From Legionella sp. (lineage in GTDB: Bacteria > Pseudomonadota > Gammaproteobacteria > Legionellales > Legionellaceae), in the NCBI GenBank assembly GCA_013911415.1, contig JACETI010000003.1, forward strand, positions 160,001 through 224,000: a DNA stretch of 64,000 nucleotides, given 5' to 3'. Each line of letters starts with the position of its first letter. Within the stretch, counting starts at the first letter, position 1. Positions 16,158-49,401 of this stretch are shown here, one piece after another. The notes beneath the pieces are model-generated. The model did not search any database. It saw only the letters and a program-made list of their open reading frames with translations, and was not told the DNA's origin. Made by a program: the position numbers and the translations under genes.

Positions 16158-18455
16158 TTATCCCCCACCAAACTTACACTTATACTTAACATTTAATAAG
16201 TAATCTCCGAGGTATCCCCTCTCAGGCCCTGTTTTAGATCTCGAGAAAAGAGAATGATTGCACAACGATTTCCACACGGAATGTTCACGTCTATGAAGTT
16301 TATCAACATCTTCTTTTGCAAATAATTTTTTGGCAATATCTTTTAAATCATTCCATGCTGGTTTCGAAAAATAAGCCGCTTCTTCAATAGATGCCTTGTG
16401 TTCGTGTTGTTTTAATAAAGCATAGGCCACGATGCATTGAAGAATAGAAGGATTTTTCCTCGCATTTTCACCGTCATTCAATATTTGTTCGGGTATAGCT
16501 TCACCAATATATGCCTTTAAAGACTCTCTATCGGAGATCGTGAACCTCAAAATTGAGAGGAACCATTTCTCGTTTCTGAATGCTTCTAAAAAAGCTATTT
16601 TATTGGATGGGCTGAAAATCTTTTCACAAGACTTAATCGTCGCATAAAAATCAGACCCTCCGCGGATAATGTTAGGTAGTCTAGGCAGCAGCCAATTAAA
16701 TACTAGGAGACGATCTTCGGCCCAAAAGTAGTTAAAGAGTTTTTCAAATGCTGCGCCGTTTTTGAGAATATCTGAAAGATATGGCGTACTCATTTCAGTC
16801 ACAATGAGGGTTCGATCTCCATCAAAACATTGCAACATCTCTAGAAAAGTATCCATATCCTTAATCATTTTGAATAGTCTGGACTTACACTTACCATAAA
16901 GCGCCAATTTTTGTTCAGAATCTAAATACAGGATGATGTTTTGAAAATCCTTGAGAGTATGAATTAACTCCGGTAAAAAAGGTAAACAGGCATTATAGAT
17001 GACGGCCTTAAGCTGCGGATTTAAATTGCAAATAATAAGCCTAAAATCAAATGCATTGCGGAGAAAATAGGGGAGGTACCCTACCAGTGCTTCACAAATT
17101 GCTTTTTGAGGCTGTAGAACTAAGCCACCAAGAAGGCTGTTAATCCAAGTCATATCTTTAAAATACTGGGATGAAAGATGATTACATTTGACATATAGCC
17201 TATTACTATTCTCAGTGCTTAAATTCTTTATCATCGATTTGAATTCGGTTGAATTTTTAAAAATTAGAAAGAATTGCGATGTAAGCGTTAATTTCAGGGT
17301 TGAGCTTTGTTCTGAGGTTAGTCGATTGAATAACTCTTCAAAATCGCTACTTTTTTTAATAAGAGCGGGTAAGAATAATTTACCTAATAAGCCTATTTTG
17401 ACATCTTTATCTGTATCTAAAAATTGCAGCAATTCTTTAAAATCTGCAACAGTTTTTATAATTTCTTTTTCTTTAGCACTTAAATTCTCATATCCTTCCT
17501 CCATAGATGGATAAGATTGCAAATGGAAAGCGAGATCTGAGATCGTTTGAGGGCCAACGGGTTGATGGGAATACAATCCATAGTCTTTACATTGTTGTGA
17601 AATAAATTCTTTTATAAAATCCCAATTAATTGCAACGAATTGGGAAACAACGATCCCCTTTTCCTCTGTTTCTTCTGTAATAAAGATCTCATCTACTATT
17701 AAATTAAGAGGTATCGAATCAATGGCTAACAATCCATTTAAACGAGTAAGAATAGTGTTATAAGCACCGTAAGAATAGCCTTCTTCTTTATAGTCAAGGT
17801 AACAATCGGATAAAGCTGAGCGCAAATGGTCGCAGAGCATTTGAATAACATTACTGTGAGTGAGCGATGTTTCGAACGTCTGCTTTAGCGCATTAAGGAT
17901 CGTTTGCTCATTTAAACTCCCAAGATACACATCTTCTCTATTTCTTTGTCTAACACCAAAACCATAGAGATTGGCGATCGTAAAAAAACGATTAGTCGCG
18001 TGAACTTCATTCGTCACTTTAACTGCCGCTTTAACGACTAAGGATTCGCGTACCTGATGAAGCAATTGTGGTATATTTTTAGGCCGACTCCAGCTTAAAA
18101 TAATTTCTTGTACCCGATCATGAAAACCCGGTGAACAAGAATCTATTTCTTCCATTAATTTTTCTCGAATAATTTTCTCTTCACAGATTGTCATTTTGCC
18201 TAATTGATAGTCTAAACATCCGTCGAAACGCAGCTGAATAAGTTTTATCAACTCAATCAGTTCTATTTTTCGTAGATAATTTGATTCGCAACCAATGTGC
18301 TTTGATAATCTGATACCTTTCAAGGTGACTGGTGTTGCCAGGGCGTTAAGTCTCACTGACTCGAGCTTTGTTAATTTTAATTCGAGGGGTGGATCGTACC
18401 GAAAGACTTTGTCTTTGTTTAAATGAGGGTCTAATTTTAACTGGAATTCGTACAT
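16158..18455 (-). CDS. 33-residue helical repeat protein, paralogue A
   Basis: A 765-residue protein, paralogous along its full length to the next gene upstream on this strand. A conserved N-terminal domain (about 1-330) holds the shared block CSPGFHDRVQEIILSWS, followed by RNRFF- and GFGVRQRN-type motifs. From residue 338 there are about nine tandem repeats of exactly 33 residues with the pattern D-F-x-x-[LI]-[LI]-x-x-L ... L-P-x-L-I. A conserved C-terminal cap (YFSKPAWNDLK) follows. There is no signal peptide. The repeats should form an alpha-solenoid. The architecture suggests a host-interacting effector, but that is inference. The nearest ribosome site, AGGGAG, is 14 bases from the ATG. 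Confidence 0.75.
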   Translation of the reverse strand: MYEFQLKLDPHLNKDKVFRYDPPLELKLTKLESVRLNALATPVTLKGIRLSKHIGCESNYLRKIELIELIKLIQLRFDGCLDYQLGKMTICEEKIIREKLMEEIDSCSPGFHDRVQEIILSWSRPKNIPQLLHQVRESLVVKAAVKVTNEVHATNRFFTIANLYGFGVRQRNREDVYLGSLNEQTILNALKQTFETSLTHSNVIQMLCDHLRSALSDCYLDYKEEGYSYGAYNTILTRLNGLLAIDSIPLNLIVDEIFITEETEEKGIVVSQFVAINWDFIKEFISQQCKDYGLYSHQPVGPQTISDLAFHLQSYPSMEEGYENLSAKEKEIIKTVADFKELLQFLDTDKDVKIGLLGKLFLPALIKKSSDFEELFNRLTSEQSSTLKLTLTSQFFLIFKNSTEFKSMIKNLSTENSNRLYVKCNHLSSQYFKDMTWINSLLGGLVLQPQKAICEALVGYLPYFLRNAFDFRLIICNLNPQLKAVIYNACLPFLPELIHTLKDFQNIILYLDSEQKLALYGKCKSRLFKMIKDMDTFLEMLQCFDGDRTLIVTEMSTPYLSDILKNGAAFEKLFNYFWAEDRLLVFNWLLPRLPNIIRGGSDFYATIKSCEKIFSPSNKIAFLEAFRNEKWFLSILRFTISDRESLKAYIGEAIPEQILNDGENARKNPSILQCIVAYALLKQHEHKASIEEAAYFSKPAWNDLKDIAKKLFAKEDVDKLHRREHSVWKSLCNHSLFSRSKTGPERGYLGDYLLNVKYKCKFGGG
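16554..17444 (-). repeat. About nine in-frame 33-codon repeats, paralogue A
   Basis: Nine consecutive 99-base units encode 33-residue helical repeats starting at residue 338 of paralogue A. The units are strongly diverged in sequence but show no length change over at least the first eight, so the period is under selection. Confidence 0.75.
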
Positions 18456-18687: not shown

Positions 18688-21165
18688 TCAGACATTATTT
18701 TTTGCTTGGAACAATACATCACCCGGATATAATTGTTCCGATTTGGGCTTCGAGAAAATAGATTGTAAAGGCATTAATGATTTCAAACTCAGCTGCTTGC
18801 GGTGAATTTTGTCGATATCTTCGTTAAGGAAAAAACCCTTTGCTCTTTTTTTTAAAGCATTCCACGCGGGCTTTGAATAATAAGCACTTGCGTTCTTCAG
18901 TACTTTTTTCTCATATTCTTTTAATAATGCGTAAGCGGCTAAACTTGCTTGAACAGACGTCTCTTTTTCTATATCTATGTCCTTCTCAATTAATTGCTCA
19001 GGTGATGCATTCCCAAAAAAAGATTTAAATGACACTCTACCCTCAATTTTTTGCTTCAGCAGAGGCCTGAACCATTGTTCTTTTTTAAGCGCTTCCAAAA
19101 AAAACATTTTTTGCTCAGCATCTAGCTCTGTTTTGAAGGTTTCAAGCGTCGTATTAAAATCAAGAGGACACTGAATAATCTCGGACAATTTAGGCAGGAT
19201 AGCATGGAACACTAGAGCAGGTTGTTCACCACTAAGGCATTGGAAAATTTTTCTAAAGTCCGCAGCGTTCCTTATTAAATCCTTGAAGAAAGGTGCGGTC
19301 TGATCGCAAATAATGGTCCGATCCTTATCGGCGAAAGGCTTAAGCATTTTATTAAAAGTTGAGATATCGTTACAAATCACTGCTAAACGAGGGCCGATCC
19401 TTTTACATAGGCTGGCTTTTTGATCTGTATTTAAACATAGAAAGATCTCCTGCAACTCCGAAAGAGTTTTCATCACTTGAGATAATGTCGTTAAACAAGC
19501 AATGAAAACGACCCCTCTTTGTTCATCATCTAAATGCCGGACTATCGTTAAAAAATCAAATGAATTGAAGATAATTTTTGGAAAGTGAGGCAAGAATGTC
19601 TGCAAGAAATTTGTTCTTTGCTCCGCGTCTAAGCATTCCAATATCATGTCGCAGTCAAAAGCGCTTTTGATAATATCAGCCAATACAGGAGAGAATGCCG
19701 TATACACTAGTGCTTTTTCATCCGTAGTCAGCATTGTCAGAAACGATCTCAAGGCGAATGCATTTTTAAAAACGATAGGTAAATAGGGGATGAGCGCTTT
19801 TGAAAGTACTTGCCTTTGCTCTAGAGTAAAAAATTTAAAAATTTCTTCAAAATCTTCAACTTTGATCGTTATGTAAGGTAAAACAGCAAGAAGCACATCG
19901 AGCATGAAGGATTGTTGCTCAGTGCCTAAACATCGTAAAATCCTTTTAAAATCTACCGAGCTTTGAATGATTTTTTCCCATTTAGCAGCTAATAGATTAC
20001 ATAAACTGTTTTTTTGTTTATTATCTAAATAATTAAACAATCTTTCGAGCTCAGAAATATTGCTAATCCATTTAGGGATGCGATAGCAGCAGACTTCCAA
20101 TACTATTGATTTCAGCTCATCATTTAAGCGCTTAAAAATTTCGGTAAAATCCCTATTGTTTTTAATAATTTTGTTGAATTGATTAATAAAATCGGTACCA
20201 CTTTTGTATGCCAATGGATTGCTTTTAAGATAACTTACTAAGCCTGTTATATTGTTTGGTTCAATGCATGTTTTAACTAATAATTGATGTTCCTGGAGTT
20301 GGGTCAGAATAATTTTGTTTACACTACCCCATTTGAGAGCAACAATACGTGGAATAAGTATATCTCCCTCGACTGTTTCTTTTATTATAAAGCATTCGTC
20401 CATAGTCAAATTGAGGAGATTACCATCGACCGTTAATAACCGATTGAGTCGGTTTAATATGCTGCTATACGCGCCGTAATCGTAACCTTTTTCTTTGTAC
20501 CCTGCGTAAACATCTGATAAGGTGGATCGTAAACTCTCACTAAGCATTTGAACAAGGGTATAGGGATTTAAAGATGCTTCAAATGTTTCCTTAAGTGCTT
20601 TGAGGATTTTTTCGTCCAGCAAAAGTCCCTGATGCAGATCATTTCCGTTCCGTTGCCTGACTCCAAAACCATGAAGACTGGCAAGTGTAAAAAAGCGATT
20701 CGTCTCATGCACACCATTGGTTAATTTAATTGCTGCTTTAATAACCAGTGATTCACGTACTAGATGAAGTAACTGCAGAATGTTTTTAGGTTGACTCCAA
20801 CTTAAAATTATTTCTTGTACCCGATCATGAAATCCAGGAGAACAAGCCTCCGCACCCTCCCCCAACTTTTCTAAAATAACTTGCTCTTCGCTAATCGTTA
20901 TTTTTCCTAAATGCTTAACCAAACCGCCGTTTAAACGCAGTTGGATAAGTTTTAATAAACCAGCTAGTTCTTCTTTCTCCCGGTAGGCGGAATGAGCACC
21001 AATGTGTTTTGTTAAATCCAAGTTTTTTATAAAAAGAGGAATAGGCTGTGCATTTAACTGAAGTTTTTCAAAATCGGTTAACTGTAATTCTTTCGGGGGG
21101 CTGAACTGAAGGATTGCGTCTTTATTTAAAAGAGGATCGATGATTAGGTTAAATTTATCCATCAT
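18688..21165 (-). CDS. 33-residue helical repeat protein, paralogue B
   Basis: An 825-residue paralogue of the adjacent gene, with the same order: N-terminal domain with SPGFHDRVQEIILSWSQPKN and FGVRQRNGND, a repeat array from residue 339, and a C-terminal cap (YYSKPAWNALK). It has about eleven 33-residue repeats, two more than paralogue A. The open frame continues upstream for another 63 codons, but that part reads through tRNA-Leu and tRNA-Cys genes and cannot be coding. The start is therefore placed at the ATG pair at 21165/21162, which aligns with the start of paralogue A. No strong ribosome site is visible. Function unknown; effector role inferred. Confidence 0.75.
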   Translation of the reverse strand: MMDKFNLIIDPLLNKDAILQFSPPKELQLTDFEKLQLNAQPIPLFIKNLDLTKHIGAHSAYREKEELAGLLKLIQLRLNGGLVKHLGKITISEEQVILEKLGEGAEACSPGFHDRVQEIILSWSQPKNILQLLHLVRESLVIKAAIKLTNGVHETNRFFTLASLHGFGVRQRNGNDLHQGLLLDEKILKALKETFEASLNPYTLVQMLSESLRSTLSDVYAGYKEKGYDYGAYSSILNRLNRLLTVDGNLLNLTMDECFIIKETVEGDILIPRIVALKWGSVNKIILTQLQEHQLLVKTCIEPNNITGLVSYLKSNPLAYKSGTDFINQFNKIIKNNRDFTEIFKRLNDELKSIVLEVCCYRIPKWISNISELERLFNYLDNKQKNSLCNLLAAKWEKIIQSSVDFKRILRCLGTEQQSFMLDVLLAVLPYITIKVEDFEEIFKFFTLEQRQVLSKALIPYLPIVFKNAFALRSFLTMLTTDEKALVYTAFSPVLADIIKSAFDCDMILECLDAEQRTNFLQTFLPHFPKIIFNSFDFLTIVRHLDDEQRGVVFIACLTTLSQVMKTLSELQEIFLCLNTDQKASLCKRIGPRLAVICNDISTFNKMLKPFADKDRTIICDQTAPFFKDLIRNAADFRKIFQCLSGEQPALVFHAILPKLSEIIQCPLDFNTTLETFKTELDAEQKMFFLEALKKEQWFRPLLKQKIEGRVSFKSFFGNASPEQLIEKDIDIEKETSVQASLAAYALLKEYEKKVLKNASAYYSKPAWNALKKRAKGFFLNEDIDKIHRKQLSLKSLMPLQSIFSKPKSEQLYPGDVLFQAKNNV
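19063..20151 (-). repeat. About eleven in-frame 33-codon repeats, paralogue B
   Basis: Eleven consecutive 99-base units starting at residue 339. Typical unit features are D-F at the start, E-Q near position 12 and an L-P-x-[IL] helix end near 25-28. Only the last unit carries a three-residue insertion. The units are too diverged to be recent DNA duplications. Confidence 0.78.
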
Positions 21166-21198
21166 TTTAAATAAATCATTAAATTGAAGAATATGAAT

Positions 21199-21285
21199 TG
21201 GTGCCCAGGGCCGGAATCGAACCGGCATGGTGTTACCACCGAGGGATTTTAAGTCCCTTGCGTCTACCTGTTTCGCCACCTGGGC
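21199..21285 (-). tRNA. tRNA-Leu (TAA)
   Basis: An 87-base type II tRNA with encoded CCA. The acceptor stem GCCCAGG/CCTGGGC is perfect, the T-loop is TTCGATT, a long variable arm is present, and the anticodon TAA lies in CTTAAAA. It is third in the Gly-Cys-Leu array after pgsA, the same order as E. coli glyW-cysT-leuZ. Confidence 0.95.
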
Positions 21286-21297
21286 AATTTTAAGGAA

Positions 21298-21368
21298 AGG
21301 CTGAGGCCGGAATCGAACCGGCGTACACGGCTTTGCAGGCCGCTGCATAACCACTCTGCCACACAGCC
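21298..21368 (-). tRNA. tRNA-Cys (GCA)
   Basis: A 71-base tRNA with anticodon GCA in CTGCAAA and a standard T-arm (GCCGG-TTCGATT-CCGGC). The acceptor stem GGCTGTG/CTCAGCC has a U-U mismatch at pair 6-67. The discriminator base is U, as usual for tRNA-Cys. CCA is not encoded; the genomic sequence continues TTCC, so CCA must be added after transcription. Confidence 0.93.
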
Positions 21369-27689: not shown

Positions 27690-28052
27690 TTAAAAAGTCG
27701 GCACTGGCCTGCAGTTTTCAGTGCCTTGTACTTTGTCAAGCAGCATCTCGGTAATTTCTTTATTAACCTTTCCCGTGGTCGTTCGGCAGATATGATTAAT
27801 TTCTTTTAATCCACTGCGTAATCTAGCCAAAGCTTCATCACCTTTATCGCTAGGAACAATTTTATCAAATTCGACAGCAAAATCGTTCTCTGATTTGTAT
27901 ATAGCTAATGCCAGCAAAGTATTAAACGCTCCATAGCAATGTTCTCTATCATTGAGATCAGGGATTTTATCGAACGCCTGGCAAACCGCATCAATAAATC
28001 GCTCCATTTTCAATTGATATACCATTTTTTGTGTATTTATTGTAGAAATCAT
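27690..28052 (-). CDS. Small protein coupled to the zeta-kinase-like gene
   Basis: A 120-residue soluble, mostly helical protein without a family I recognise. Features are a helix start FIDAVCQAFDKIPDLNDREH, then YGAFNTLLALAIY, and a C-terminal CRTTTGKVNKEITEMLLDK. Its ATG overlaps the stop of the 1054-residue gene (ATGA) and has AGGA about eight bases upstream, so the two are translationally coupled and made together. A chaperone, immunity or accessory subunit role is plausible but not shown. The YGAFNTLL segment loosely resembles YGAYNTIL in the 33-residue-repeat proteins, which may be chance. Confidence 0.6.
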   Translation of the reverse strand: MISTINTQKMVYQLKMERFIDAVCQAFDKIPDLNDREHCYGAFNTLLALAIYKSENDFAVEFDKIVPSDKGDEALARLRSGLKEINHICRTTTGKVNKEITEMLLDKVQGTENCRPVPTF

Positions 28053-31000
28053 AATGTCATCCTATCTGAAACGTCATTTACTTGATTAGCCATACCTTCA
28101 AACTTTGGAAGGTGAAGCAGTTTCTGAATCTCTGAGCCCATGTCATGATTATGAATCAAGCATTGTTTATTGAACTCTTTTAAATCGCCATAATGGCCGT
28201 ACAAGATCAGGGTTTCAATGGCTGTACGTTCTAAATCCGTGGCTTGCGTTAATCTTTCTTGCAACTGCTCTGGATCTTGAATATCTAATAGTAATCTTCC
28301 TTGCTCGCTCTTTTCAAGAGATAAACAAGGAAGCTGATTCTTACCCTCTAAAACAACTTTACAACCAAGTTTTACTATTGATAATAATGCATCAACTTGA
28401 TACTGTATTTTCTTAATCTTCTTAAAAAACAAGCTCTGCGGGCATTGTGCATCTAAATTCACGCGGCCTTTATTAAAGAAAGCCGCAAGCTTTGCTACAG
28501 CATTTGTTTCGTAACAAATAGACAGCGTTTTAATACCATCAATATGTCGGACAATACCGATCAGGGGCGCTGGTGCATTACGAGGGCCACTTGTGTCATA
28601 AAGCTTGATGGGCAAATCAGATGGAGCATATAAAAGAAGATTTAAACCAGCGTTCTTATGGGTTTTTAGCAAATCCGTGGTGTTAATGTATCGCCCCTTA
28701 TCACCCAGAGATGCTTCTTCTTGGCCTGCCCTTTCATACGCTCGTTTAACCACTTCATTAATATCATCATAACAAGCAAACACAAGGTCCGTATGTTCTT
28801 TATTTTTAAAAAGCGCTTTATATGAAGGTTTACATGTCATAGCATCAATAATAACATTCGCTCTTTGCTGCATTGTCCGCAAACGACTATCAACCAATTC
28901 GCCAATTAAATAAGCAGAGTCTTGCGTACGAATAAACATCTGCTCGGTTTCGATCGCTTCGAATTCTTCCGTGTTCTTTCTGTGAAAACCACGATAGTGA
29001 TCCGGATTACACGAAATATAGGCACTGGTATCTTCTGTTGGGCAATATTTACTTGATAGCGTACTCTTGCCACTGGCAGGTGGACCTAAGAATACAAAAT
29101 CATGGTTTCCTGAAACGGGATACACGGGTTTCTTTTCAAAATGCAATATTGCGTAATTGTCGAAGCATTTATCCATAAATTGATCGAGCCACTGATTTCT
29201 AATCGCTTTTCTTGCCTTGTTGTTTTCCATTTCCACATAGGGCAATAATTTTAACGCGTACTCATTATCAGCTTTATCTAAGGATGGTTCCCTCATTCTA
29301 AGTTTTTCTTCCGCTTTAGGGGTGCTCATCTCAGCCAAACAACTACGCGCTTTATCACTTTGTTCAAAGTCATTTTGCATCTTCTGCAGCGTCGGATAAT
29401 GGTCTTGCAAAAAAGCCTGCGTCAATGCTTTTGCAGCGTCATTAATGCTCTCCACAGGCGCTTTATAGGAGGTCACAAGGCGTGCGACCACGTGCAACCA
29501 TACGCTTGTTTCAAGGGTAGGAACCAAAACATCGGTTAACCAGGCTTCACCTGTCAATCGAGCTGCATCAATCTGCGCATCTAGATCTCCTTCCATAAAG
29601 CCTGGTTGAAGGATACGGTTATATTTCCTTTGTAGCATATCATCAGTTGCTGGATCCCAAGTTTGTAACGCTTTAAGGCCGATTACGTGTCGCATATTAT
29701 AATATTTGCTTGCTTCCTGACTGACTGCTTTTAACTGCTTAGGATCAAAGTGGAAAGAATCAGGAGAGAAGGTTAAAGGAGAAAGATTTATTTCATCATG
29801 CTCAGCTGTTTGTAAAGGATCATGTATTATTGATTTAGAGAAAATATTTCCTTTCGCTAAATCAAGGGTGACTGGCACTTCCCCGCCACTCAATAAAAGA
29901 CTATCCAAATTTGATAAAAAATGAGGCGCTAATTCTTCAGTTAATAACGGACGTTTAATGACTGCATCAATTAGATTATCGCCTTGCAAGTTTCCAAGAA
30001 CGGATGCAGATACAACGCTATCTTTAGATAAAGCCACGTATTCTTCGTAAATCGAGAGCTTTAATTGCTCGGTCACACTTTTTTTCAATCGCTCCCGTAA
30101 ATCTGCAATCACGGTTTCATCCATAGGGGATTCGGAATTGACAAGCGGATGCTTGTCATTTAAAGCCATAATTGCTGCATCAAGCGCATGATCATTTTTT
30201 GAAAGATCATCCTCTAAACTAACAATAAGTTGTATTATTTCATTGAAGAGGTTTAAAATCTCAGCTACGTTTTTTTGCGTTTCATGGTCATCTTTTAGAT
30301 AATCACAAACAAACACTTCAATTTCTTTGACCAATCGCTCACTCGCTTCTTTGATTAAAAACGATTCAACGAGAGAATGATGACCCTCAGCAAGCCAGTA
30401 ATAGAGATCAAATTGAGCAGCCGTTTGCTGTACCAAATTAGAGGGTGGTAGATAGACCTGCGATAAAGTATCCTGCATTTCTGCGGTAAGGTAAGACAAA
30501 GCCACTTTTTTTAAGGCTGGCGTTGTGCCAAATTTGACTGCCTCAAAGAAGTTTTGCAAGTTATCTGCCGTAATTTCTTTCGGGACTCTAACTTCTTCAC
30601 CAAGATTTTTACGGTTAAAATCAACGGCAAGACTTTTTAAAAAATTCTTTAGAAATTTATCGAATAACGGATTGCTAGCCAAATATTCAATTAATTGTCG
30701 ATATTCATCAATTGCTTTTACTTTGTTAAAATTAGGAAAGCTTTTTTTCAGTTTTTTTTGGCCTTGCAAAAAAAGCTTGTAGCGTTCTTCAAACGTTTCA
30801 AGGGCATCGATTCCGATGGTTTCCAATTGTGAAATTGTCAATTTCTGTTCATTTTTACCTGTAAGTTCTTTTGCAAATCTTTCGGTAAAAAAATCATAAT
30901 CAGGATGTTCTTGAAGACTATCTAAAACGTTTTGGAAGATTGAGTGTTGATACTTGTCAAATCCCAACTGATCAATCACCTCTTTTTTTATAAGTCGCTC

Positions 31001-31213
31001 TGCTTGTTGAGACAATTTTGTTTGCAGCTGTTTAGCAACTTTAGGAGAAATGTTATCCCAGGTCTCTGTATTTCCTTGTTCATCTTTATAGGAAGAGTAA
31101 GTAGTCAGCGACAATCGGATTGCATTACGTAATGAAGAATCTGGCGCAAGCCCCAGTACACTTTCATTCGCTTCGTCGATCACTATACTTGGCTTAGAAG
31201 ATAGGACTTTCAT
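28049..31213 (-). CDS. Large protein with zeta-toxin-like P-loop kinase domain
   Basis: A 1054-residue protein with no signal peptide. About 680 residues of charged, helical sequence of unknown type come first. A P-loop kinase domain follows: Walker A GPPASGKST at 710-718, then AYISCNPDHYRG, DSAYLIGELVDSR and NVIIDAMTCKP, in the order seen in zeta toxin/PezT kinases, which phosphorylate UDP-amino sugars. About 200 more residues close the protein. Its size is unlike a toxin-antitoxin toxin and closer to the zeta-domain effectors reported in Legionella. The ATG at 31213 has GAGAGG five bases upstream; a GTG at 31219 would overlap that site. Confidence 0.7.
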   Translation of the reverse strand: MKVLSSKPSIVIDEANESVLGLAPDSSLRNAIRLSLTTYSSYKDEQGNTETWDNISPKVAKQLQTKLSQQAERLIKKEVIDQLGFDKYQHSIFQNVLDSLQEHPDYDFFTERFAKELTGKNEQKLTISQLETIGIDALETFEERYKLFLQGQKKLKKSFPNFNKVKAIDEYRQLIEYLASNPLFDKFLKNFLKSLAVDFNRKNLGEEVRVPKEITADNLQNFFEAVKFGTTPALKKVALSYLTAEMQDTLSQVYLPPSNLVQQTAAQFDLYYWLAEGHHSLVESFLIKEASERLVKEIEVFVCDYLKDDHETQKNVAEILNLFNEIIQLIVSLEDDLSKNDHALDAAIMALNDKHPLVNSESPMDETVIADLRERLKKSVTEQLKLSIYEEYVALSKDSVVSASVLGNLQGDNLIDAVIKRPLLTEELAPHFLSNLDSLLLSGGEVPVTLDLAKGNIFSKSIIHDPLQTAEHDEINLSPLTFSPDSFHFDPKQLKAVSQEASKYYNMRHVIGLKALQTWDPATDDMLQRKYNRILQPGFMEGDLDAQIDAARLTGEAWLTDVLVPTLETSVWLHVVARLVTSYKAPVESINDAAKALTQAFLQDHYPTLQKMQNDFEQSDKARSCLAEMSTPKAEEKLRMREPSLDKADNEYALKLLPYVEMENNKARKAIRNQWLDQFMDKCFDNYAILHFEKKPVYPVSGNHDFVFLGPPASGKSTLSSKYCPTEDTSAYISCNPDHYRGFHRKNTEEFEAIETEQMFIRTQDSAYLIGELVDSRLRTMQQRANVIIDAMTCKPSYKALFKNKEHTDLVFACYDDINEVVKRAYERAGQEEASLGDKGRYINTTDLLKTHKNAGLNLLLYAPSDLPIKLYDTSGPRNAPAPLIGIVRHIDGIKTLSICYETNAVAKLAAFFNKGRVNLDAQCPQSLFFKKIKKIQYQVDALLSIVKLGCKVVLEGKNQLPCLSLEKSEQGRLLLDIQDPEQLQERLTQATDLERTAIETLILYGHYGDLKEFNKQCLIHNHDMGSEIQKLLHLPKFEGMANQVNDVSDRMTL

Positions 31214-31491
31214 TTTCACCTCTCGAACAAATGACTACAAACTGCAATTTCATACAATTGAAGCTGCAGGAACTTTTATTGCGAGAATTTTGCTTTACCT
31301 TCCGTGAAGCGACAGTTTATCTGTCAAACCTTAAGGAAAAATTAAAAACACATGACAATTTCAGCTTAAATGAGTGCTAAACAAATTTTTTTTTTGAAAC
31401 GCCATTTCCACCTCAAGTAGGCATGGCATCCATCCTCGATAACAACGATAATTACTTAGAAATTGTACAGTGATAATCAATTAACGAAGCG

Positions 31492-45212: not shown

Positions 45213-45280
45213 TATTGTCTCCTTAGTCACAAATCACCATAGAGCTACCATCTTCATTAGAATAACATTTTTCTATTATC

Positions 45281-45470
45281 CTAGAGATAAAGTGTCGCTC
45301 TGAAAATTACAGCAGTAGGCCCAACGGGATAACAACCACCGCAATCAGGATAATAACTGCCCTCGTCAAAATAGCCTCTGCGATGAAAACCCCACCATGG
45401 TAGTATCCACTCCCGTTGTGATAATGTCCACCACCTCTATAGCCTCTGTGCCTCTGGTGTTATGTGCATA
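45281..45470 (-). pseudogene. Degenerate Gly/Tyr-rich small gene
   Basis: In the 315-base gap before zipA one frame reads RHRGYRGGGHYHNGSGYYHGG, and about half-way the same kind of composition moves to another frame (FHRRGYFDEGSYYPDCGGCYPVG) ending at TAG 45281. A single indel near 45400 would join them into a small Gly/Tyr/His-rich protein. No start codon with a ribosome site is intact. Weak evidence; low-complexity DNA could mimic this. Confidence 0.3.
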
Positions 45471-45527
45471 TGCCCCCGCCCACTCATCAATAATAGCCCA
45501 AAAGCATGGCTATCTTTTAAAATGCAT

Positions 45528-47123
45528 TTAATTTCTTAGAACATTCGTTTGTAATGACAACTGATTTTCAATGCGGGGCTTTTGACAAAAAAATGACTGG
45601 CACTCGTCGCTAAATTGCATTAGATAGCTTTCCTTTTTTTGAAAAAAACTACACGCCCAATCCCATATACGCTCCAAAAGGTTTTGCTTGAGCAGCCAGT
45701 TCTTTTTTAATCTTATAAATTCCACACACTGTGATTCACATTGACTGCTGCTTTTGTGAGGATCGCTTAATAAATATTTTAATTCTTGTAAGAAGCGGTA
45801 TTGGTTAACGGTATTTTTAATTTCTGCTTGCTGGTCTTTTTGTAGGGTTAGCAACCACGCTTTGTTATCCGAAGCATTTAAATACTCTAGGGGCACTTTC
45901 AATTGGCAGAGCTTTGCAATCACCATAGGTTCACAATCATTAATAATAGTATTCAAGTCTTCTAAAATTTTGGAGGTTGGATTGTTTAAACATTGCTGCG
46001 CCAGATAACGAAACCCCTCTACAATCCCTTTATTATCTTTAACCGAGATCGCCAGCACCGCAATATCTGCACGATCCGCCATTTTTAAGATCTCAAAAAT
46101 ATCTGCTTGTGTAGTATTAAGTGCAGCATCAGCTTGTTCATAAAAAACGACAATTTTCCTATCACCTACAAACCGCAAATACTTATCAATGAGCACCTGA
46201 CTGCTTTGTTTGGTTTGATTGCTATTGATCACAATGCCTATTGCAGCAGCATCACCTATGTGCTTCTCAATACATAAAAACCGGGGATCTTGTAGAAGCC
46301 AAATTTTTGACTGGATAGTTTTACCATCCAACTTTTCTTCTTTAACTGCATAATCAAGTGTAGGCGTGTTAGTTTCAAAAAAAGCGTTATGCGCATATCG
46401 CATCAAGAGATTTTCTTTGGTTTGGGATGCATCTCCGATCAACACCATTCGTACATATTTCTGCGGGAGCTGTGCAACTTTCTCTTCAATATGTATATTC
46501 TCTTGATTCAATGCATTTAATGTCCGTGCTTTCAGGAAATTTTTGTCCATAATTAAAGAATTGAAGGCTTCAGTAACACCTAAGTCTTCTTTCGCCGAAG
46601 TGATCCGTATACTAATATCGGGACGATTTTCCGCATTTAAAACTGCCTGCACATCCTCCTTAGTCGTAATGCAACTTTTCGTGGAGGTTTCCAAAAGAAT
46701 AATCAATTTCTTATCAGATGGTATAGAATCAAGGTATTTCTTTATAAGCCGCTGATTCTCATGTCGAGATTGATGACTATCCACAACAATCCCAACGGCG
46801 TCTGTTTGGTCAAAATAACTGACAAGGTTTTTCATTGGATAATCATGGGTAATTGAAAAAACCGCTTGAATCATTTTTTGATTCATTTGCATTGTCTTGC
46901 TTTTGAAATCGAACGTGAAATTACATGCATCTTCTTCGAAATATGTTCCATCTATATACCTAGTCAGCAATCTTTCACATGTTTTTGAAGTATCTCCAAC
47001 GAGTGCGATTCGTCTACCTTCTTTTTGAGCTTTATAAGGTATCGACAATTTTTCAGCCATTTGCTTGAGTTGTAAGTTTTTTACGCATGCAGCGTAATAT
47101 TCAGGGTCGAATAATTCGGTCAT
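45528..47123 (-). CDS. Tandem Rab-like GTPase-fold protein (degenerate G motifs)
   Basis: A 531-residue protein with two eukaryotic-type Ras/Rab-like domains. Domain 1 (about 37-195) has RIALVGDTSKTCERLLTRY, FTFDFKSKTM and SAK at 176-178 in a G5-like context (SAKEDLGVTEAF). Domain 2 (about 224-385) has MVLIGDASQTKENLLMRY, LDGKTIQSKIW and ISVKDNKGIVEGF. P-loop Lys is Cys49 in domain 1 but kept as K236 in domain 2; DTAGQ is lost in both, and NKxD is not recognisable. The last 140 residues are helical and unrecognised. It is likely a Rab-mimicking pseudo-GTPase. Rab-like proteins are reported among Legionella effectors. Secretion is inferred. Confidence 0.78.
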   Translation of the reverse strand: MTELFDPEYYAACVKNLQLKQMAEKLSIPYKAQKEGRRIALVGDTSKTCERLLTRYIDGTYFEEDACNFTFDFKSKTMQMNQKMIQAVFSITHDYPMKNLVSYFDQTDAVGIVVDSHQSRHENQRLIKKYLDSIPSDKKLIILLETSTKSCITTKEDVQAVLNAENRPDISIRITSAKEDLGVTEAFNSLIMDKNFLKARTLNALNQENIHIEEKVAQLPQKYVRMVLIGDASQTKENLLMRYAHNAFFETNTPTLDYAVKEEKLDGKTIQSKIWLLQDPRFLCIEKHIGDAAAIGIVINSNQTKQSSQVLIDKYLRFVGDRKIVVFYEQADAALNTTQADIFEILKMADRADIAVLAISVKDNKGIVEGFRYLAQQCLNNPTSKILEDLNTIINDCEPMVIAKLCQLKVPLEYLNASDNKAWLLTLQKDQQAEIKNTVNQYRFLQELKYLLSDPHKSSSQCESQCVEFIRLKKNWLLKQNLLERIWDWACSFFQKKESYLMQFSDECQSFFCQKPRIENQLSLQTNVLRN

Positions 47124-47277
47124 TATTATAAGTTTAAAAGCAGAATGGTGCCCACGTTATAAGGTATTGTGAGATTTTTCAATATTCAACCACAGAAAAC
47201 ATTTAACAAAGCACTATAAGCTTAAAGTGATGACAGAAAATCGTCACAAGCGTTTTGGTTTGCTTAGCACCGTACAA

Positions 47278-47847
47278 CTAGCGGGAATGTTGACTCTGCA
47301 ACAATAATTTATTTGTATAAGCAATCATTAAAGCCGATACAAGTAAAGTTAAGTGGATAATTACTTGCCACATGACGCTTTCGTTCGATTGTTTAGCTGT
47401 TTCAATAAAAGTGCGTAAGAGGTGGATAGAAGAAATACCAATTAATGAAAGCGCTAATTTCACTTTCATCGCGCCGGCATCGAGATGACCAAGCCACTCC
47501 GGATGATCGGGATGATCCTTTAAATTCAAACGAGCAACGAAAGTTTCATAGCCACCCATAATTACCATGATTAATAAGTTAGCTATCATAACCACGTCAA
47601 TGAGGTCGAGGACACCTAGCATTAGTTCTGTGTTATTCGCACCATTGATATGTTGAACAAGTTGAAATAATTCAATCAAAAACTTATAAACGTATACAGC
47701 TAATATTAAAATCAACCCCATGTATAAGGGTGCTTGTAACCAGCGTCCTGTAAAAATGAGCCGACTAATAACCCTTTTGTATTTCATGGGTCTCAAAATG
47801 GTTTTTTGTTGAGGTGCGGAATTTAAATTGAGTATGGTTTCTTTCAT
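47278..47847 (-). CDS. YqhA/UPF0114 family membrane protein
   Basis: A 189-residue inner membrane protein with four hydrophobic segments. The family blocks are LIFTGRWLQAPLYMGLIL, VMIANLLIMVIMGGYETFVARLNL, HPEWLGHLDAGAMKVKLALSLIGISSIHLL. Function of UPF0114 is not established. The first 20 residues are longer than in E. coli YqhA, and Met21 (47787) is a possible start; neither has a strong ribosome site. Confidence 0.88.
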   Translation of the reverse strand: MKETILNLNSAPQQKTILRPMKYKRVISRLIFTGRWLQAPLYMGLILILAVYVYKFLIELFQLVQHINGANNTELMLGVLDLIDVVMIANLLIMVIMGGYETFVARLNLKDHPDHPEWLGHLDAGAMKVKLALSLIGISSIHLLRTFIETAKQSNESVMWQVIIHLTLLVSALMIAYTNKLLLQSQHSR

Positions 47848-48128
47848 AGTATGACAACATCATTGTTTTTTAGCCCTTCCTCGAACGCGCTTAGCATTCA
47901 TTCAGTCCCTTGAAACACCTTTATTTTGCCTGATCTTAATTCTGGAAAGCAAGTATTTTTAAGGGGCACTCTGTGTTTCAATAAAAAATGAGGGTTTTGT
48001 TTAAACAATATCTAAGGCTTTGGTTGTTCTGAAGTTACAGACTACAAGAAAGACAACTTTAAATGCTGTTAGAAATTGTTGGTCACGATTAGGAACCGAC
48101 GCTAGAAATTAACTCGACGTATAAGCTC

Positions 48129-48163
48129 TTTCCTTACTCTGCTCTCTCGGCAGAGTAAGGAAA
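48129..48163. other. Perfect 14-bp inverted repeat with 7-base loop
   Basis: TTTCCTTACTCTGC pairs perfectly with GCAGAGTAAGGAAA, between yqhA and the convergent-side end of the desaturase gene. Neither strand has a T-run after the stem, so it is not a classical intrinsic terminator. The rest of the 366-base gap 47848-48213 holds nothing recognised. Confidence 0.6.
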
Positions 48164-48213
48164 AACACTGGAAAAAAGAAGTGACAATATCACTAAGAAT
48201 AGACGATTAGTTT

Positions 48214-49401
48214 TTAGGGCATCGCTGCCGGTTTAGATACATATCCTTTTATTTGCAAAGCAAACTGACGTAGGGTTTCTAAACCCGACTCTTCAGCTTG
48301 CTTACACCATTGCTGTAAAGCCTCTACTAACTCTTTTTGAGACGTCGCTGTACGCTGCCAGACATTTTGTAAAGATTGACGGAAGCGATAAACTGTTTGT
48401 AACTGTTCATAGCTCGATAATAACGACTGTAATCGTGCGTTCGCTTTTTGTGAAAGTAACTCTTCCTGCAAACGCAACAAACGCCCTGCGCGAAGCGGCA
48501 AACGTTTGGTCTTAGTGATTGCCGACTGTTTCTTTTCTTGTTTTAAAATAGGACGGATAACTTGATTATAATAATGTGACATCACTTGGAAACGATTACC
48601 AATAACCGCTCTGACCGTCTCTAAATCAACATGTAGTTTATTTTTATCTCGAATTAACTGCGGCGGCAATTTCCGAACTTTAGCTAAACCTAACCAACAG
48701 AGACAGCGGATATATAACCAACCTATGTCGAATTCCCACCACTTGACTGAAAATTTGGCTGAAGAAGCGAACGTATGATGGTTATTGTGTAACTCTTCCC
48801 CTCCTATCCAAAAGCCCCAGGGAATAATATTTGTCGAGGCGTCGGCACATTCAAAATTACGATAACCACTATGGTGGCCTACCCCATTGATGACGCCAGC
48901 TGCATGCAACGGGATCCACATCATTTGAATCGCCCAAAGGGTAATACCAGGCAAGCCAAATAAAATGAGGTATAGCACAAACAATAAACTAATCCCTAAA
49001 GCAGAATATCGAGAATAAAGATTCCTCTCAATCCAATCATTGGGGGTACCATGAGCATATTTAGCAACCATTGCTTTGTCCTTAGCAGCCGAGCGGTATA
49101 GTTCCGCACCTTCTGCCAAGATTTTCTTTAAACCTTCAACTCGTGGGCTATGTGGATCTCCTTCCACATCAGTCATAGCATGATGCTTGCGGTGAATAGC
49201 TACCCATTCGGCAGTAACCATGCCCGTCGTCATCCATAACCAAAAACGAAAAAAATGGCTTACTATGGGGTGTAAATCTAAGGCCCGATGCGATTGACAT
49301 CGATGCAAATACAAGGTGACACCAGCAATTGTAATTTGCGTTAAGATAAGGGTAGCAACAACGTACCCCCACAATGAGAGGTTGAGAAGGCCAAATACCA
49401 T
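48214..49401 (-). CDS. Fatty acid delta-9 desaturase
   Basis: Integral membrane di-iron desaturase that introduces a cis double bond in acyl-CoA or acyl-lipid chains. The three histidine boxes are HRCQSH at 33-38, HRKHH at 70-74 and HNNHH near 207, with an extra conserved GVGHHSGY. Four hydrophobic segments are expected. The last 130 residues, after KWWEFDIGWLYIRCL, are a charged helical extension. GGAG lies eight bases before the ATG. It is divergent from the plsC-like gene, and both act on membrane lipid composition. Confidence 0.92.
   Translation of the reverse strand: MVFGLLNLSLWGYVVATLILTQITIAGVTLYLHRCQSHRALDLHPIVSHFFRFWLWMTTGMVTAEWVAIHRKHHAMTDVEGDPHSPRVEGLKKILAEGAELYRSAAKDKAMVAKYAHGTPNDWIERNLYSRYSALGISLLFVLYLILFGLPGITLWAIQMMWIPLHAAGVINGVGHHSGYRNFECADASTNIIPWGFWIGGEELHNNHHTFASSAKFSVKWWEFDIGWLYIRCLCWLGLAKVRKLPPQLIRDKNKLHVDLETVRAVIGNRFQVMSHYYNQVIRPILKQEKKQSAITKTKRLPLRAGRLLRLQEELLSQKANARLQSLLSSYEQLQTVYRFRQSLQNVWQRTATSQKELVEALQQWCKQAEESGLETLRQFALQIKGYVSKPAAMP

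Follow-up and report, generated by a model that had tools for sequence, protein, structure and literature searches.

A tandem pair of Rab-like domains with decayed nucleotide-binding motifs in a Legionella protein

Gene and protein layout

We analysed a stretch of 64,000 nucleotides from Legionella sp. (GCA_013911415.1, contig JACETI010000003.1, positions 160,001 to 224,000; hereafter the window, whose own numbering is used for all coordinates), in which a gene on the minus strand (45528..47123) encodes P0001, a 531-aa protein with two tandem Ras-superfamily domains (residues ~35–205 and ~220–392) that we describe as a putative tandem pseudo-Rab protein. The 531-codon open reading frame (ORF) had been pointed out, with no strand given, in a preliminary description made from the DNA letters; we take it to be a gene because its codon usage fits the other genes of the window in that frame alone (+0.225 per codon; the other five frames range from −0.25 to −0.51). 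As a whole, the protein matches Pfam Ras with an E-value of 2e-10.

All parts of the gene lie on the minus strand. Domain 1 (46509..47021, residues 35–205) and domain 2 (45942..46466, residues 220–394 in its fullest delimitation) are preceded by an N-terminal extension (47022..47123, residues 1–34), in which a model of very low confidence (predicted local distance difference test score, pLDDT, ~30) has a helix at residues 7–25, and followed by a C-terminal extension (45528..45941, residues 395–531 plus the stop codon), helical in a low-confidence model. Neither extension matched a family above its cut-off in Pfam or NCBIfam, the NCBIfam search of P0001 gave nothing above cut-off, PADLOC gave no match for it, and a query starting at residue 392, run against 56 further genomes from the family, found no relative of the C-terminal piece at E 0.001. 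The C-terminus has no prenylation cysteine (the last residues are NVLRN), no clear membrane helix was seen (maximum Kyte-Doolittle value 1.2), and the best hydrophobic moment lies at residues 379–402. A promoter scan was uninformative (6 sites, 6.9 expected).

Ras-superfamily fold and Rab kinship

The preliminary description read the protein as two Rab-like copies in tandem, and both do match Pfam Ras: domain 2 with 31.8 bits and domain 1 with 21.6 bits, which is exactly the cut-off of 21.6 bits (domain 1 fell marginally under it, at 20.0 bits, in the whole-genome search). Among solved structures, to which the comparison was confined, Rab is the nearest family: a two-domain P0001 profile placed Rab1 at the top of its matches in PDB (E 1.3e-13, 54 bits), the best 60 of 206 matches were all Rab/Ypt, and domain 1 searched with phmmer matched Rab1B (E 1.2e-6).

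The model of domain 2 (predicted template modelling score, pTM, 0.66; mean pLDDT 62.3) has the Ras topology of a six-strand sheet and five helices, and its top Foldseek matches are Rab8 and Rab1a (E ~1e-9, template modelling score ~0.70). Its VIA-align matches are mostly Ras and tied within 1 Z, so structure alone cannot separate Rab from Ras. From the model and these matches, a Ras-superfamily G-domain fold is predicted for domain 2, and the same fold is predicted for domain 1 by sequence comparison. Structure prediction, Foldseek and a Ras-profile search had been proposed in the preliminary description, with a fold other than Ras, or prokaryotic GTPases such as MglA or Era as best matches, named as contrary outcomes; the modelled fold of domain 2 came out Ras-like, and no MglA, Rup or Era protein is among the best 60 of 206 PDB matches or the 50 Foldseek rows listed. 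A full-length AlphaFold model made without an alignment (mean pLDDT 40.7) gave mixed Foldseek rows, none at E ≤0.001, and was used for the order of elements only.

Loss of G motifs and RabF motifs

As compared to the canonical P-loop GDSGVGKS, domain 1 reads GDTSKTCE and domain 2 GDASQTKE. G1 (GxxxxGK[ST]), G3 (DxxG) and G4 (NKxD) are gone from both domains, and G5 persists, reading TSAK in the first domain and ISVK in the second. The preliminary description anticipated much of this: the G5 segments, the replacement of the P-loop lysine of domain 1 by C49, and the loss of DTAGQ, which motif alignment extends to DTAGQE missing from both domains. It also had domain 2 keeping its P-loop lysine, and K236 is indeed present; the preceding glycine has become T and the following serine E (TKE for GKS), and an intact G1 in domain 2 is ruled out, the lysine standing within TKE rather than GK[ST]. 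In GTPases, the P-loop serine after the lysine is a Mg-binding residue. By their motifs both domains of P0001 are classed as pseudo-GTPases, and the earlier view of a duplicated eukaryotic-type G domain that had turned into a pseudo-GTPase agrees with the Rab matches and with the loss of G1, G3 and G4.

Little is left of the Rab-specific motifs as well. RabF1–F5 positions are kept at 4 of 26 in domain 1 and 5 of 26 in domain 2, as compared to 19 of 26 in a Rab11 control (the motif idea is from PMC4915359; the F3 count depends on the alignment: in the HMMER alignment domain 2 retains the RF of F3 as well). In its interswitch region domain 2 retains LDGKTI and IW, and its switch I is shortened; the longer string LDGKTIQSKIW, ascribed earlier to both copies, is found in domain 2 and not in domain 1.

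For comparison we took 40 loci of relatives, strongest first in the Ras search, which gave 41 Ras-like rows (39 of the 40 loci gave one row each); loci L035–L043 were left out as apparently general GTPases by frame length, and one row that was kept, L063, likewise resembles a housekeeping GTPase by its length. GK[ST] is kept in 33 of the 41 rows (absent in 4, unreadable in 4). For the G3 aspartate the tally is 33 kept, 7 lost and 1 unreadable, and for [NT]KxD it is 25 kept, 14 lost and 2 unreadable. No domains other than the two of P0001 were scored as lost at G1, G3 and G4 alike. L028 (G409), whose G1 was unscorable, on reading also has no G1, G3 or G4, so the triple loss is uncommon among the relatives' rows and not unique. 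The L028 frame is 218 aa long and Ras/Rho-like; its G motifs are decayed, and its C-terminal CAIM may be a prenylation box.

Duplication and the order of events

The two domains share 31% identity over 153 residues of domain 1 (BLASTP E 3e-26), and their local alignment score is 212, whereas the highest score among 1000 shuffles was 68. Rab1 and Rab11 have the same residue at 85 positions; of these, 20 are conserved in domain 1, 22 in domain 2 and 13 in both, and at 17 the two domains carry an identical new residue, among them the P-loop replacements G>S, G>T and S>E. A tree was built from 41 rows, after L018, L026, L028 and L062 had been removed as short or odd. In this tree the two domains are sisters (support 100/99), and their common stem is 1.62 changes per column long; the bootstrap had yet to settle, and the long branches leave their placement among other Rabs unsure. 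Because the three P-loop replacements are common to both domains, and the domains are sisters on a long stem, decay of the nucleotide pocket was most likely the earlier event and the tandem duplication the later one.

A second tandem Rab-like protein, L056 (G027), was found as a 319-aa frame at a contig end. Both of its P-loops read GK[ST] and its two domains are sisters in the tree (99/84); we read it as an independent duplication, separate from that of P0001.

Distribution among relatives

A Ras-family match at E ≤1e-9 was found in 20 of 57 genomes of the family; at weaker E-values general bacterial GTPases are picked up too, as 12 of 14 control genomes are positive at E 1e-4. The two-domain profile, applied to 93 family genomes and to 143 from the order, found five proteins with a single match each outside the genome that carries P0001. 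They score 26–43 bits, read as single Rab-like domains and fall below Rab1 in the same profile (54 bits), which may point to a separate capture or merely to slow evolution of Rab1. No second tandem copy was found with this profile in the 143 genomes of the order, a search that can miss divergent tandem proteins, as it missed L056, which was found by Pfam Ras. The two runs differ on L067 (G444), which was matched in the 93-genome run, whereas the five genomes with matches in the 143-genome run do not include G444.

With the P0001 protein as query, nothing was found at E 0.001 outside its own genome among 54 genomes, and a run over 369 genomes gave six weak matches outside it, the best being L009 (8.7e-6). 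Searches of a contig database (whole protein or two-domain alignment) and of plasmids and phages (tblastn) found no close relative of P0001; these are weak negatives, as such scans need short near-exact peptide patterns. L009 (G263), the sole match from outside the family that was inspected, scores 23–24 bits against the two-domain profile. It is a Rab-like GTPase frame beside a sensor-kinase-like frame in another family of the class, possibly a Rup-type system.

Genomic setting and other genes of the window

The genome that carries P0001 (2.5 Mb, 98.3% complete) encodes DotH/IcmK, the component of the type IVB secretion system that was searched for (E 1.5e-100; 0 of 14 control genomes). Neighbour comparison places the gene in the zipA–desA interval (45231..48213, 2983 bp) together with yqhA (47278..47847, minus strand), which encodes a UPF0114 membrane protein (Pfam 8e-35). 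In three of the four relatives viewed (G017, G011 and G002), desA and zipA are direct neighbours with gaps of 35, 230 and 255 bp; in the fourth, G007, zipA is flanked by other genes, and the stretch gave no desA match. In four further relatives smc adjoins zipA, with a desA match on the far side of smc in G008 only (the other three stretches end less than 1 kb past smc). The P0001 gene is absent at the site in the seven relatives with smc or desA beside zipA, and yqhA is matched in six family relatives, five of which also have a zipA match, there on another contig or more than 200 kb away. The guanine-cytosine content is 0.370 for the P0001 gene and yqhA versus 0.42–0.44 for zipA, murF and desA. 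Because the desA–zipA interval is empty in relatives and this content is lower, the P0001 gene most likely entered a conserved site.

The smc-like gene (~1160 aa) that adjoins zipA in the four relatives (L072–L075) is missing from that site here, and no smc match was found across the whole genome with a query that is positive in 32 of 57 family genomes; loss or strong divergence of smc thus recurs. The fatty acid desaturase gene desA (48214–49401, minus strand) has a C-terminal part that matches the transposase model DDE_Tnp_ISL3 (7e-12); this tail is probably a family feature of the desaturase, since alignments to relatives span it.

Other genes observed in the window, all on the minus strand, include two adjacent low-GC paralogues (16158–18455 and 18688–21354; 765 and 888 aa, 38% identical), for which no Pfam match was found at E 0.01 and which are effector-like in look only. 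The listed start of the 888-aa paralogue crosses the tRNA-Cys and tRNA-Leu genes, which makes a true start near 21162 likely. A 1056-aa protein (28049–31219) contains a Zeta-toxin/AAA_33-like kinase domain at residues 701–857 (Pfam 1.5e-6).

Proposed function and alternatives

We propose, with somewhat better than even confidence, that P0001 is a two-headed pseudo-GTPase scaffold derived from a captured eukaryotic Rab that decayed and was then duplicated, and that it is delivered by the Dot/Icm system. A eukaryotic Rab-type small GTPase would have entered a Legionellaceae-like lineage, lost its nucleotide pocket first (with G1, G3 and G4 destroyed), and then been duplicated in tandem to give two Ras-fold modules and a helical tail in 531 residues. 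The product most likely binds no nucleotide and would act as a permanent protein-binding scaffold with two heads; delivered into the amoebal host cell through the Dot/Icm (type IVB) system, its pseudo-Rab modules and tail would hold host partners together without a GTP/GDP cycle. The lack of nucleotide binding, the scaffold action, the translocation and the host partners are what we infer. By its kind and setting P0001 is probably a Dot/Icm effector, because Legionella Rab-like proteins are regarded as likely effectors and DotH is encoded in the genome.

Several points weigh against this proposal. The P-loop changes common to both domains could also have arisen by convergence, or through gene conversion acting on the two copies, and the 41 comparison rows were selected on their scores with the Ras profile, a choice biased towards intact motifs. 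The domain-2 model is moderate (pLDDT 62.3), the full-length model failed (40.7), and the fold of domain 1 is sequence-based. In the genomes searched, no other protein with this architecture was found, and the evidence for purifying selection is limited to an open frame and to two folds that can still be recognised. No E-block was seen at the C-terminus, and its hydrophobic residue at −3/−4, a feature taken to mark Dot/Icm substrates, is uninformative, as it occurs in 26 of the 40 window proteins tested (P0001 included) and hence does not discriminate. LegA15 is described as an effector GTPase working by a non-canonical mechanism (PMC9757750).

The preliminary description had left the choice between a scaffold and a nucleotide-independent Rab mimic, in which one or both domains would offer a Rab-like switch surface and sequester regulators or effectors of host Rabs. 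Rab1 as the nearest family among solved structures and the interswitch LDGKTI and IW of domain 2 fit such a mimic; however, with the RabF positions mostly eroded, the shortened switch I of domain 2 and DTAGQE gone, we consider it unlikely and favour the scaffold. It is more doubtful still that domain 2 binds nucleotide in an unusual way under regulation by domain 1. K236 is present, and there are published precedents in LegA15 (PMC9757750) and in EhRabX3, which has no G2 and is called active (PMC8514894), but the glycine before and the serine or threonine after the lysine are lost, a glutamate sits at the Mg-binding place, and DxxG and NKxD are missing.

We regard it as very improbable that P0001 is a degenerate prokaryotic small GTPase of the MglA/Rup kind acting inside the bacterium: although Rup proteins are close to Rab/Ras (PMC4316618) and the gene lies among cell-division genes, a comparable score was obtained in one genome of 143 in the order, the profile gives Rab1 54 bits versus 23–24 for L009 from outside the family, and the gene is missing at the site in the seven relatives mentioned. 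A functionless gene in decay would suit its restriction to one lineage and its eroded motifs, yet we rate it slightly lower still, given 531 open codons, a codon usage like that of its neighbours, and two domains still recognisable as Ras despite 31% identity, which is suggestive of prolonged selection since the loss of the pocket.

Comparison with known systems

If the scaffold proposal holds, P0001 may be the first bacterial tandem pseudo-Rab, a captured Rab that lost its pocket, was doubled afterwards and was long kept as a constitutive two-headed adaptor, the Rab fold serving as a structural element in place of a switch; we offer this as a tentative suggestion, a little short of even. No earlier report of a bacterial tandem pseudo-Rab was found in literature covered mostly by titles and abstract openings, and the genus-wide paper doi 10.1073/pnas.1808016116, outside that coverage, may list P0001 or its relatives. 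P0001 would provide a natural test, as its function cannot depend on the canonical switch, both pockets being gone apparently before the duplication, and the separate duplication of L056 would make doubling of Rab-like domains a recurrent route. L056 resembles P0001 in having two Rab-like domains in one frame; unlike P0001 it has GK[ST] in both P-loops, arose by its own duplication, is cut at a contig end and is invisible to the P0001 profile.

The described Legionella Rab-like proteins include Llo3288, Llo2329 and Llo1716 of L. longbeachae, among ~180 small-GTPase-like proteins in Legionella (PMC2824747, PMC7542358, PMC9757750); they are likely effectors whose function and nucleotide cycle are described as open (PMC2824747, PMC7542358). 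P0001 resembles them as a Rab-type G domain in such a bacterium and as a putative secreted effector, but differs from the rows of its relatives (genome rows, not the published proteins) in having two domains with G1, G3 and G4 lost in both. LegA15 of L. pneumophila is likewise an effector with an atypical G domain; it is, however, an ankyrin protein that binds and hydrolyses GTP (PMC9757750).

Among eukaryotic proteins, EhRabX3 of Entamoeba histolytica has tandem G domains of the Rab kind with non-canonical motifs, as P0001 does, but is called a functionally active hydrolase (PMC8514894, PMC5593906); it is not among the best 60 matches listed in each of three P0001 sequence searches. PseudoGTPases are defined as GTPase folds lacking G motifs, and those of class (i) bind no nucleotide (PMC5593906). 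The pG1 and pG2 domains of p190RhoGAP are assigned to class (i), with sequence as the basis for pG2, and like P0001 this protein contains two pseudoGTPase domains with degraded G motifs (PMC5593906); unlike P0001, it is eukaryotic and carries them inside a RhoGAP. To this short class (i) list (PMC5593906) P0001 would add a bacterial, Rab-derived case.
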